Assembly (NCBI GenBank): GCA_947626285.1
Contig: CANQRR010000007.1
Location: 1 to 64,000 of the forward strand
Length of the DNA: 64,000 bases
Origin: an uncultured Lachnospiraceae bacterium
GTDB taxonomy: Bacteria; Bacillota; Clostridia; Lachnospirales; Lachnospiraceae
Reading direction: 5' to 3'
Position 1 is the stretch's first letter. Each line of letters opens with the position of its first letter. The position numbers and the translations under genes are program-made. Shown here one piece after another: positions 145-46,233 of this stretch. The notes below the pieces were generated by a model. The model was not told the origin of the DNA. It saw only the letters and a program-made list of their open reading frames with translations, and did no database searches.

Positions 145-396
145 TGATCCCTTTTTTCAGCCTGTATAAAATTTTCAAAGTTCACAAATTTCTGCTTGAC
201 TTTTTATTTGCAGACTTACATTCTTGATTATGTCTTTTATGATAATTTTCCTGTTTTTCAATATTTGATGTTTCATAAATGACACGTCCATGATATATTA
301 GAATCAAGAAAAAAGGTGATTTAATAATCATCAAAGATTCCAAAGATCATCCTGTCGCGGTGTTTAAAAAAATCAAAAGAAATGGAGCTTTCGTGT

Positions 397-1401
397 ATGA
401 ATGATGATAAATTCTTTTTAACCTATAATCAGCAAATGCGAAAATTAAGAAATGACAAAAAAATAACCTGTCAGGGCTCTTCTGACAAAAAGATTTTAGT
501 GAGGGCAGGCTACTTTAATCTCGTAAATGGTTATAAGAATCCTTTCGTCAGTGGAACAGATGCAAATGGAAATCATACCTACATAACCAATACATCCATT
601 AATCAACTACAGGCGGTCAAAAAATTCGACGATCAACTAAGATCTTTTTTACTAAGGTATATCACGCAAATTGAAGAGGAAACCCGGACCTTAACTGGTT
701 ATAAATTTGACGAATGTAATAATAATGGAGATATTCCCTGGTATGATATTAATGCTTATTCCCCAAATGTGTCGCTGCAAACTAAAATGAATGTAATTTG
801 TAACGCATATAAAGATTTAAATAATAGTAAATTAGACTATGTAAAATTCTATATGGATCACCACAAACAAATCCCTACCTGGATTATGGTAAAAGTAGTC
901 AATTTTTCTACTTTTATAGACATAGTCGCTGCTAGTCCAACTGACGTCTCTCACTCTTTATGCCATCTTTATGGCCTTGAAGACACAAATGGTCATCCCA
1001 ATGTCAAGCTCCTCATAGGCAGTCTGCATTGGATGCGAAAAATACGAAATTCATGCGCCCATAACGAACGCGTTTATTGTTTATCCAGAGCACAAGATCG
1101 ATATGGACATTCTGGAAGAATATTGGAAAAATATTTCGGTATGCTTAGCCGCGGGTATTCACGGGACTTGAATCAGAAAATATTTGATCTCCTGGTGTAC
1201 TTTAAATATTATTTACCAAAATCAGAATATAAACAGTTCATAAACGAACTAAAATCGATGTTGACAAACCTGCAATCCAAAATACATCCTCATGCCTTCG
1301 AATATGTACGTGCACAAATGGGAATTAGAAATATATCAGATTTAGATGTATTACTTAGGCTTCCGAAGGATGAGATCGACTATAATAAATTTGACAAATA
1401 G
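397..1401 (+). CDS. Abi_2 (AbiF/AbiD-type) HEPN abortive-infection protein
   Basis: Protein of 334 residues in the Abi_2 family, known from lactococcal phage abortive-infection systems and now viewed as HEPN-fold RNases or RNA-binding toxins. Visible hallmarks are the N-terminal Abi_2 block (AGYFNLVNGYKNPF) and an R-x4-H HEPN motif, R217-N-S-C-A-H222, inside RKIRNSCAHNERVY. I chose the ATG at 397 because a GGAG lies about 9 bases upstream and the product then begins where Abi_2 proteins usually do; an ATG at 382 is in frame but lacks a ribosome site. The gene is strikingly AT-rich against its GC-rich neighbours, which suggests horizontal gain. A small two-hairpin RNA unit with its own promoter follows directly and is probably its functional partner (inference). 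Confidence 0.88.
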   Translation: MNDDKFFLTYNQQMRKLRNDKKITCQGSSDKKILVRAGYFNLVNGYKNPFVSGTDANGNHTYITNTSINQLQAVKKFDDQLRSFLLRYITQIEEETRTLTGYKFDECNNNGDIPWYDINAYSPNVSLQTKMNVICNAYKDLNNSKLDYVKFYMDHHKQIPTWIMVKVVNFSTFIDIVAASPTDVSHSLCHLYGLEDTNGHPNVKLLIGSLHWMRKIRNSCAHNERVYCLSRAQDRYGHSGRILEKYFGMLSRGYSRDLNQKIFDLLVYFKYYLPKSEYKQFINELKSMLTNLQSKIHPHAFEYVRAQMGIRNISDLDVLLRLPKDEIDYNKFDK

Positions 1402-1477
1402 AATGATAAAACAAAAAATAATGCTTTTTTTATTGATATTTTGCAATTAAACATGGGAAAAAAAACTATTTTAAATG

Positions 1478-1506
1478 TTGTAATATTTTTTTTCATATGG
1501 TAATAT
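1478..1506 (+). promoter_or_regulatory. Promoter of the small RNA downstream of the Abi gene
   Basis: TTGTAA at 1478-1483 and TAATAT at 1501-1506 are separated by exactly 17 bp in an AT-rich stretch. Transcription would begin near 1513, immediately before two hairpins and with no open reading frame or ribosome site after it. Confidence 0.7.
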
Positions 1507-1512
1507 ACTTGC

Positions 1513-1577
1513 ATCGAGAGAACCATATTGATTATGGTTGAAAGGCACTCATGCATGTATTTGTATGGGTGTCTTTT
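1513..1577 (+). ncRNA. Putative structured small RNA partner of the Abi_2 protein
   Basis: The promoter is followed by a roughly 65-nt unit made of two adjacent stem-loops. Hairpin 1 pairs 1521-1527 (AACCATA) with 1533-1539 (TATGGTT) around a 5-nt loop. Hairpin 2 pairs 1541-1555 with 1562-1576 over about 15 bp using three G-U pairs and a 6-nt loop, and its 3' arm ends in TTTT, so it can double as the terminator. No coding frame is present. AbiF-type proteins have been reported to work with small cis-encoded structured RNAs that hold the toxin in check; the position and compactness here fit that, but the pairing is inferred. Confidence 0.6.
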
Positions 1578-1673
1578 ACTTTAACAAAACTGTTCAGTTC
1601 ACCAACAGCCAGATTGTGCCAAAATCTTCTCTTTCCCTCCATTAGATTTTATTATAAATTGTCTTATCCAAAC

Positions 1674-1702
1674 TTTACTAATCGGGCACGCGGTGATATA
1701 AT
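1674..1702 (+). promoter_or_regulatory. Promoter for the DUF4364 gene
   Basis: TTTACT at 1674-1679 and a perfect TATAAT at 1697-1702 are spaced by 17 bp and lie about 80 bp before the ATG at 1782. Confidence 0.65.
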
Positions 1703-1781
1703 CTCATGAAAGCCTTGCGCCCTGTGAGGGTTCCCCGGGCGTGCGGTTCACGAAAGATCTGAGCCAAGGAGGTGTCCCGCC

Positions 1782-41637: not shown

Positions 41638-41657
41638 AAATCCTCGTGTATCACATT

Positions 41658-41738
41658 GGCAACCGGCTGTCATAGCTTATGGATTCGTAAGCCTTAGACC
41701 CTTGGCTTTGCGTCCCTGCCTTTCGACAGGTTTGCCTT
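41658..41738 (-). promoter_or_regulatory. Cyclic-di-GMP-I (GEMM) riboswitch, copy 1
   Basis: On the minus strand the conserved GEMM core is unmistakable: GGCAAACCTGTCGAAAGGCA, then GGGACGCAAAGCCAAGGGTC and TAAG, and closing ATGACAGCCGGTTGCC. It includes the GNRA tetraloop (GAAA) and its receptor helix. It precedes the 719-residue Cys-repeat protein gene and is followed by an intrinsic terminator. Confidence 0.95.
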
Positions 41739-41769
41739 TTACAATGATTACAATTACTTAGGTATGTGA

Positions 41770-45886: not shown

Positions 45887-45967
45887 ACTGAACCCCTCCT
45901 CTTCAACTGAAATGCAGTTGTTTTGTTTTGGGTCCATATTTCTTACCTAATTGATGTCCAGAAATAT

Positions 45968-46043
45968 GGCAACCGGCTGTCATAGCCGCATACACGGCCT
46001 TAGACCCTTGGCTTTGCGTCCCTGCCTTTCGACAGGTTTGCCT
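45968..46043 (-). promoter_or_regulatory. Cyclic-di-GMP-I (GEMM) riboswitch, copy 2
   Basis: The same aptamer core as copy 1 (GGCAAACCTGTCGAAAGGCA, GGGACGCAAAGCCAAGGGTC, TATGACAGCCGGTTGCC) with a different variable P1b loop. Downstream, CCATATTTCT and AGAAATATGG form a perfect 10-bp hairpin that includes the aptamer's 3' flank but has no T-run, so the readout may be at ribosome access rather than termination. Confidence 0.94.
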
Positions 46044-46233
46044 TTGTTACATTTTTCTTTTTTGATATTACTGTCAGTGAATCTGTTGAATTATGTCGCT
46101 CGTTTCCTATCTTGCCTCCGACGCCTGTGATTGATCTGCCTGCACCACCACCTCCTCTGTTTTGTGAAGCCACGATCTGTGTCAAATCATGACTCAGCTC
46201 CGAAAGTCCTCCGTGACGGACTTCCTCACTTTT

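Follow-up and report, generated by a model that had tools for sequence, protein, structure and literature searches.

The window, meaning the whole stretch of 64,000 nt that was analysed, coincides at its base 1 with the start of contig C7 in a draft genome of 3.73 Mb and 147 contigs. Close to its start lies a gene for an Abi_2/AbiD-F-type HEPN protein, followed by a short two-hairpin RNA element (Table 1). The open reading frame covers 382-1401 (+), and its conserved start is the ATG at 397. The protein belongs to the Abi_2 domain family (Pfam Abi_2, E = 1.9e-36, 126.5 bits against a curated cut-off of 25.6), matches the PADLOC AbiD profile (E = 1.3e-35), and finds the solved AbiF chain PDB 8vz6 (Abi family protein) at E = 8.2e-5 as a single sequence and E = 8.4e-17 as a clade profile. 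A preliminary description of this DNA had placed a HEPN motif, R-x4-H, at R217 and H222; the residues are where it put them, and R217, N218 and H222 of the motif R-[NHD]-x3-H are invariant in 14/14 aligned clade members. The same description had called the block AT-rich and consistent with recent acquisition. The composition stands (33% GC in 130-1640 vs 54.7% in 1700-64000), but recent acquisition is not proven by AT-richness alone, though six relatives lie near phage-type recombinases. In an empty-site comparison with 29 other loci, 61 nt and 36 nt beside the downstream gene align to two sister genomes, and no more.

Table 1. Positions of the Abi_2 gene and the parts of the adjoining RNA element in the window.
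Feature	Position	Strand	Evidence
Abi_2/AbiD-F-type HEPN protein, 334 aa	397..1401	+	Pfam, PADLOC; motif R217-N218-x3-H222; profile match to PDB 8vz6
Predicted RNA promoter, TTGTAA-17 nt-TAATAT	1478..1506	+	TTGTAA 1478-1483, TAATAT 1501-1506
Two-hairpin RNA, likely RNA antitoxin	1512..1577	+	Fold, R1 model, covariation
GAGA, 5' of hairpin 1	1516..1519	+	Invariant in alignments A5 (22 rows) and A7 (26 rows)
Hairpin 1, 7 bp, loop UUGAU	1521..1539	+	Fold; pairing kept across 37 copies
Hairpin 2, 15-16 bp, ends in U4, likely terminator	1540..1577	+	Fold; 8/15 pairs changed on both sides

The element lies downstream of the gene on the same strand and consists of a promoter followed by GAGA, a 7-bp hairpin, RAAA and a terminator hairpin of about 15 bp. 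The two hairpins ending in TTTT that had been proposed from the letters are borne out by folding, with 7 and 16 bp: the segment 1510-1580 folds at -29.1 kcal/mol against a shuffle mean of -13.0 (n = 200; z = -6.1), and 0/200 shuffles are as good. It had also been described as free of open frames, and the frames touching 1478-1580 (three per strand) are 20-58 aa long, none exceeding 58 aa. Rfam release 15 has nothing above threshold at the window RNA, where sub-threshold chance matches alone occur, or at its counterparts in 13 related loci. In a consensus scan for promoters and terminators the promoter of the window RNA is absent (8/12 matches, at a scan threshold of 9), and so is its terminator (only 4 T); the same scan reports 14 other promoter-like sites vs 7.0 expected. 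A second promoter register, TATACT, ends 6 nt before GAGA. Although it falls below that threshold, the promoter that had been described is present and kept: at least 8/12 positions match, with the -10 ending 6-14 nt before GAGA, in 20/20 Abi-linked copies (a count that stands without a shuffled control). The case is carried by conservation, not by consensus match.

A protein search of public genomes returned 10 relatives, with the RNA downstream in 8/10 (L004-L009, L012, L013). At L010 the gene match ends at residue 284 with 75 nt of contig remaining and the RNA was not seen; at L011 it ends at residue 231 with about 1.1 kb of contig remaining, and there is no RNA in 4,854 nt. The clade, as defined by profile A4, comprises 23 genes of 380-588 bits, the next Abi_2 gene scoring 159 bits. 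The RNA follows 18/18 intact clade genes whose downstream DNA is readable (the window, L004-L009, L012, L013, L015, L051, L053, L054, L059, L064, L080, L166 and L167) and is also present beside the frameshifted genes G279 and G427:C28; the remaining three are L010, L011 and L052, where the RNA is unjudgeable or absent, the contig of L052 ending 3 nt past the gene match. The position is downstream in all 20 clade genes that carry the RNA, with 34-125 nt from stop codon to GAGA (11 loci measured). L008 comes from [Clostridium] symbiosum ATCC 14940 and L054 from Lachnospira eligens ATCC 27750, and in a second L. eligens record the RNA adjoins the gene by coordinates. In G054 (L015) two RNA copies stand in tandem, each with a promoter. 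The preliminary description had staked its reading on conservation of both hairpins beside related Abi_2 genes, and this is what the 18 intact loci display, with covariation.

In G003 the gene is broken by a large internal deletion and stops, and the RNA is kept with the same R1 score as that of the window; in G279 and G427 the gene is frameshifted and the RNA is likewise kept. A broken gene beside a kept RNA fits an RNA-antitoxin reading, but is partly a search effect, since the search query was the RNA itself. Moreover, the frameshifts in two of these three genes, which come from draft genomes, could be assembly errors. Recombinase genes, picked by eye, lie within about 1.2 kb downstream at six Abi-linked loci (L006, L007, L008, L009, L051, L166). 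On the viral contigs L166 and L051, frames resembling ImmA/IrrE-type peptidases (by eye) flank the Abi_2-RNA unit, which suggests a lysogeny or immunity module.

The pairing in the RNA is maintained by changes on both sides of its stems. Across 11 RNAs, 96.6% of cells are paired, 10 pairs are changed on both sides and there are 29 double-changed cells, against 7.9 on average in shuffles and at most 7 in slid structures. Across 26 RNAs, the values are 96.9% of cells paired, 10 pairs changed on both sides and 44 double-changed cells, with 15.5 in shuffles and at most 12 in slides; the structure was derived from member RNAs, which gives it an advantage over the slides in cells paired. For hairpin 1, with stem and loop length picked by script as the best fit per copy, 37 copies yield 257 pairs, 13 of them G-U, and a single mismatch, and because of the G-U pairs an RNA fits better than a DNA palindrome. 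In the 26-row alignment, conservation is higher in GAGA and over most of hairpin 1 than in hairpin 2, the loop end of which is the most variable part of the RNA.

The RNA appears to be bound to this one clade. In a sample of 392 genomes of the order, profile A4 at E<=1e-25 returned 50 rows, eight of which represent seven clade genes (G279 appearing in two pieces; main matches 377-588 bits), while the other 42 score at most 159 bits. On 392 genomes of the same draw, the covariance model R1, with which the window RNA scores 81.4 bits as a model member, matched just downstream of 7/7 clade genes (G258 with only 31.9 bits), whereas 0/42 other-Abi_2 rows had an R1 match on the same contig within 100 kb, the lists having been compared by hand under strict filters that lose weak matches. 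A structured RNA gene linked to a toxin gene, which serves as a criterion for type III toxin-antitoxin systems, is what this contrast of 7/7 vs 0/42 represents. R1 at E<=0.05 gave no match among 23 other-clade loci (L142-L164), and a class-wide set of 391 genomes, overlapping the first sample, has the clade in 2 and R1 matches above 40 bits in the same 2. The RNA is thus, as far as genomes can tell, a conserved, covarying and clade-bound putative partner of the Abi_2 HEPN protein.

R1 cross-reacts with ordinary terminators and at E<=0.01 has some match in 100/392 genomes. Its match in G346 (44.9 bits) was rejected for its plain-terminator look, and those in G545 and G055 were rejected from their letters as terminators or chance, as were L230 and L232-L234, four of five matches at 34-37 bits. 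The match L205 (28 bits) was likewise rejected on its letters. The fifth, L231 (G804, 37 bits), which follows a GH25 gene, was kept as a divergent RNA copy; the one-contig genome of G804 has no Abi_2 match.

A small structured RNA adjoining Abi_2 genes is already represented in Rfam by RF03085, the abiF RNA, and the preliminary description had proposed a covariance-model search of the window RNA against AbiF-linked RNAs. The search found no such relation. RF03085 (gathering score 37 bits) gave no match at E<=10 in window 1350-1780, none at E<=10 in the window's genome (150/1398 candidates scored) and none at E<=2 across 13 loci that carry the new RNA, and an Rfam search of 18 sister Abi_2 loci gave no abiF RNA at E<=0.2. 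The model does find its own members, in 6/148 class genomes at E<=0.01 (4 above cut-off) and at L044-L047, and an Abi_2 frame comes right after RF03085 in 5/7 loci fetched with it (L045-L049). Unlike the window RNA, RF03085 has its own consensus and fold, with a 6-bp outer and a 3-bp inner stem. Membership of the window RNA in RF03085 was excluded on the missing covariance match and on its position downstream rather than upstream of Abi_2. Judged by these comparisons, it is not the known abiF RNA and would constitute a separate RNA type, not in Rfam. Two other Rfam RNAs were seen near Abi_2 genes, namely Skipping-rope RNA (RF02924) near two different Abi_2 loci (L060:1270-1339 and L153:1186-1269, both minus strand) and pemK RNA (RF02913) at L047:1928-2041 (minus strand), close to an abiF RNA and an Abi_2 gene.

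Two characterised systems give this arrangement a likely meaning. The C. difficile Abi_2 protein AbiFCd is reported to be toxic and to require its R/H residues, and the hairpin RNA RCd22 to bind and neutralise it (PMC12373285). This pair resembles the one in the window in joining an R-x4-H Abi_2 HEPN protein to an adjoining hairpin RNA with promoter and terminator, and in its prophage association; RCd22, however, lies upstream, is co-transcribed and carries two RF03085 motifs (PMC12373285), whereas the window RNA lies downstream, has a predicted promoter of its own and is unmatched by RF03085. PbAbiF with its RNA AbiFr is the structure PDB 8vz6, described as an RNA antitoxin bound by a HEPN dimer (PMC12737573), and its likeness to the window protein (same family by profile, E = 8.4e-17) is at the protein level alone. 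Because RF03085 is unmatched, the analogy to RCd22 and PbAbiF draws on the shared protein family and the linkage of gene and RNA rather than on homology between the RNAs. By this analogy the window RNA is likely an RNA antitoxin, and we consider it quite probable that gene and RNA together form a two-part, type III-like toxin-antitoxin and abortive-infection module. The RNA-guarded defence module of the preliminary description thus gains support from conservation and covariation, its toxin-antitoxin function being drawn from RCd22 and PbAbiF. Gene family, motif, RNA structure, conservation, covariation and clade pairing come from the sequence; transcription, binding, neutralisation, toxicity and trigger are what we infer. 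Against the antitoxin reading stand the short U-tract (U4) and the cut gene L011, at which no RNA was seen.

In the proposed mechanism, the Abi_2 HEPN protein would be a latent RNase. Transcription of the short RNA would start at a promoter belonging to it and end at its second hairpin; the RNA would fold as GAGA, hairpin 1 and hairpin 2, and would bind the protein and keep it inactive. If an infecting phage shut down host transcription or eliminated the RNA, the RNase would be set free, and growth would stop. As a separate and less certain claim, copies of the RNA carried by phages without the gene would best be understood as mimics that act in trans and hold the toxin bound during infection.

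The gene-less copies in phages are the most surprising part of the finding. Among bacteria, 13 R1 matches of at least 43 bits were obtained in 392 genomes, and the 12 accepted comprise 7 that adjoin clade genes and 5 that stand alone (G475:C86, G427:C23 and three times in G218). The flanking DNA of the five lone copies has no Abi_2 match. In G475 an Abi_2 gene of another clade (23.6% identity) lies elsewhere in the genome, in G427 the clade gene is on a different contig from the lone copy, and the G218 genome has no Abi_2 match. The three G218 copies (L127, L128, L129) are near-identical, have upstream flanks that hardly differ over about 350 nt and lie near contig ends, as a repeated element.

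Among viruses, a 28-position hairpin pattern occurs in 12 contigs of IMG/VR (2.9 million contigs), where a reversed control pattern has 0 matches and a GGAT-loop pattern 0 viral matches. A looser hairpin pattern returned the same 12 viral contigs plus one chance match, L225, which was rejected because it lies inside a reading frame and its arms are not complementary. The 12 viral copies score 51.5-76.1 bits with R1, and Abi_2 is present in 2/12 of the records and absent from 10/12, some of which may be fragments. BLAST of the viral copy L216 against 50,697 phage records found, besides three 20-nt words, Ruminococcus phage phiRM10 and MT836489; R1 gives the phiRM10 and MT836489 copies 32.1 and 35.7 bits, and neither whole record has an Abi_2 match. 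An antitoxin-like RNA in a phage without the toxin gene, as an RNA decoy would require, is accordingly found in 10/12 IMG/VR records, phiRM10 and MT836489. BLAST of the window RNA and of the L213 RNA against phages gave nothing, and that of the L209 RNA gave 20-nt words only. The L219 match, 29 nt in an uncultured 484-kb phage with 17.9 bits in R1, was set aside.

For ten representatives, the DNA of each pair (45 in all) was compared, with up to 1.5 kb on each side. More than 88 nt are in common only for L226/L227, nothing was found in 8 pairs, and what the others share is the RNA core; two further pieces, of 24 and 42 nt, came up among them. When L213/L215, L216/L220 and L226/L227 are each taken as one, nine contexts unrelated at the DNA level result, which have little besides the RNA in common. 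L216 and L220 share a block of 835 nt, 90% alike, that stops at the RNA end, with three shorter pieces further down, and the 97% block of L213/L215 starts 12 nt before GAGA. A PHROGs search with 10 neighbour proteins from 9 contigs (one or two per contig) identified an integrase at L211 and L212, a terminase large subunit at L213 and L219, a ParB-like protein at L214, an exonuclease at L216 and a head maturation protease at L220; the neighbour at L217 is weakly like Lar or endonuclease VII, and that at L209 has no match. At L216:4438-5199 a phage beta-CASP protein (Pfam) ends right before the RNA and has a matching gene in L220, with no function given in PHROGs. A promoter of at least 8/12 is found in 3/4 gene-less bacterial copies and 1/12 phage copies (counts likewise made without shuffled control), and hairpin 1 has no mismatch in 12/12 phage copies, its stem geometry being fitted per copy. 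Phages thus seem to keep the RNA mostly without its promoter, and the 11/12 copies lacking one suggest transcription with phage operons.

From these observations, several unrelated phages may have taken up the RNA antitoxin without the toxin gene and kept it, mostly promoterless, as a decoy that inactivates the Abi_2 HEPN toxin, an RNA-based anti-abortive-infection strategy; we regard this claim as evenly balanced. We find it conceivable, and do not lean towards it, that the gene-less phage copies are instead left over from Abi modules since lost, or are RNAs with a regulatory role in the phage. Four of them (L211, L212, L226, L227) lie near integrases and may indeed be relics, because six intact modules are also near recombinases; phiRM10 and L227 have lost the U-tract and score just 32-36 bits, and the promoter kept in 3/4 gene-less bacterial copies is as expected of relics. 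Against a relic origin, eight viral copies are situated elsewhere, with terminase, ParB-like, exonuclease or head-protease genes nearby where annotated, the 9 DNA-unrelated contexts have little but the RNA in common, hairpin 1 is mismatch-free in 12/12, and 11/12 are without a promoter of 8/12.

The gene-less copies also bear on the suspicion that the hairpins serve the Abi mRNA only as terminator and 3' UTR, with a possible stabilising effect. Hairpin 2 is terminator-like and comes right after the gene, and R1 does cross-react with ordinary terminators; yet a promoter lies between gene and RNA in 20/20 loci (again without shuffled control), hairpin 2 is less conserved than GAGA and most of hairpin 1, tandem copies each have their own promoter, and copies exist in phages and bacteria with no gene to terminate. 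This makes a terminator-only role very improbable, and the second hairpin appears, as the preliminary description held, to be more than the end of the Abi mRNA. Very improbable, too, is a DNA site, either the attachment site of a neighbouring recombinase or a repressor operator. Recombinase genes do lie within about 1.2 kb at six Abi-linked loci (by eye), and integrases near the gene-less copies of L211, L212, phiRM10 and L227, but one element would have to be common to tyrosine and serine recombinases, inspection by eye showed no recombinase near L004, L005, L012 and L013 or near the eight other viral copies, none is annotated near L054, and G-U pairs, covariation, promoter and terminator speak for an RNA. 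A Cell 2025 study reportedly finds AbiF not to be RNA-guided, which counts against reading the RNA as a guide or sensor. Such a Cas13-like role, directing the HEPN protein to targets in place of a plain antitoxin, would agree with AbiF as the reported ancestor of Cas13 (PMC12737573) and is scarcely credible here, as a spacer-like variable stretch is absent and variability peaks at the hairpin 2 loop end.

Precedents for antitoxin-like or solitary RNAs in phages come from other systems. The toxin of ToxIN has a fold different from that of the HEPN Abi_2 protein. Its RNA side is closer to the present case, in that ToxIN has an RNA antitoxin and phage PhiTE carries an antitoxin-like RNA, pseudo-ToxI, reported to let the phage escape ToxIN; this antitoxin is of repeat type, whereas the phage copies here are single (PMC3475682). 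Racr RNA anti-CRISPRs are described as phage-borne, solitary copies of an RNA element that belongs to a defence system; they mimic CRISPR repeats, whereas the window-type RNA is a putative partner of a HEPN protein (PMC10651486). A literature search found neither the window-type RNA nor phage copies of an Abi_2 antitoxin; an earlier description is possible, the 2017 RNA and Cell 2025 AbiF studies having been outside the search.

If one Abi_2 clade does have a second RNA type bound to it, for which no relation to RF03085 was detected, the RNA half of these modules would be exchangeable or have been reinvented, and an exchangeable RNA half bears on the protein's route from antitoxin RNA to guide RNA. 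The decoy reading, if true, would amount to anti-defence aimed at a protein family thought ancestral to Cas13. With the phage copies, RNA decoys become open to testing, phiRM10 being a cultured temperate phage (PMC10072058), and because Rfam release 15 finds nothing at the RNA above threshold, the covariance model gives a means to find such modules and their phage counterparts.

The window's own genome has two further Abi_2 genes, and neither RF03085 nor R1 matched at their loci at the thresholds used. One of these genes (G000:C58:9877 on, L135) is directly preceded by a promoter-like sequence and a GC-rich hairpin leader; the other is at G000:C44 (L134/L003). The window itself also holds two c-di-GMP-I riboswitches on the minus strand, at 41655-41746 and 45965-46052.
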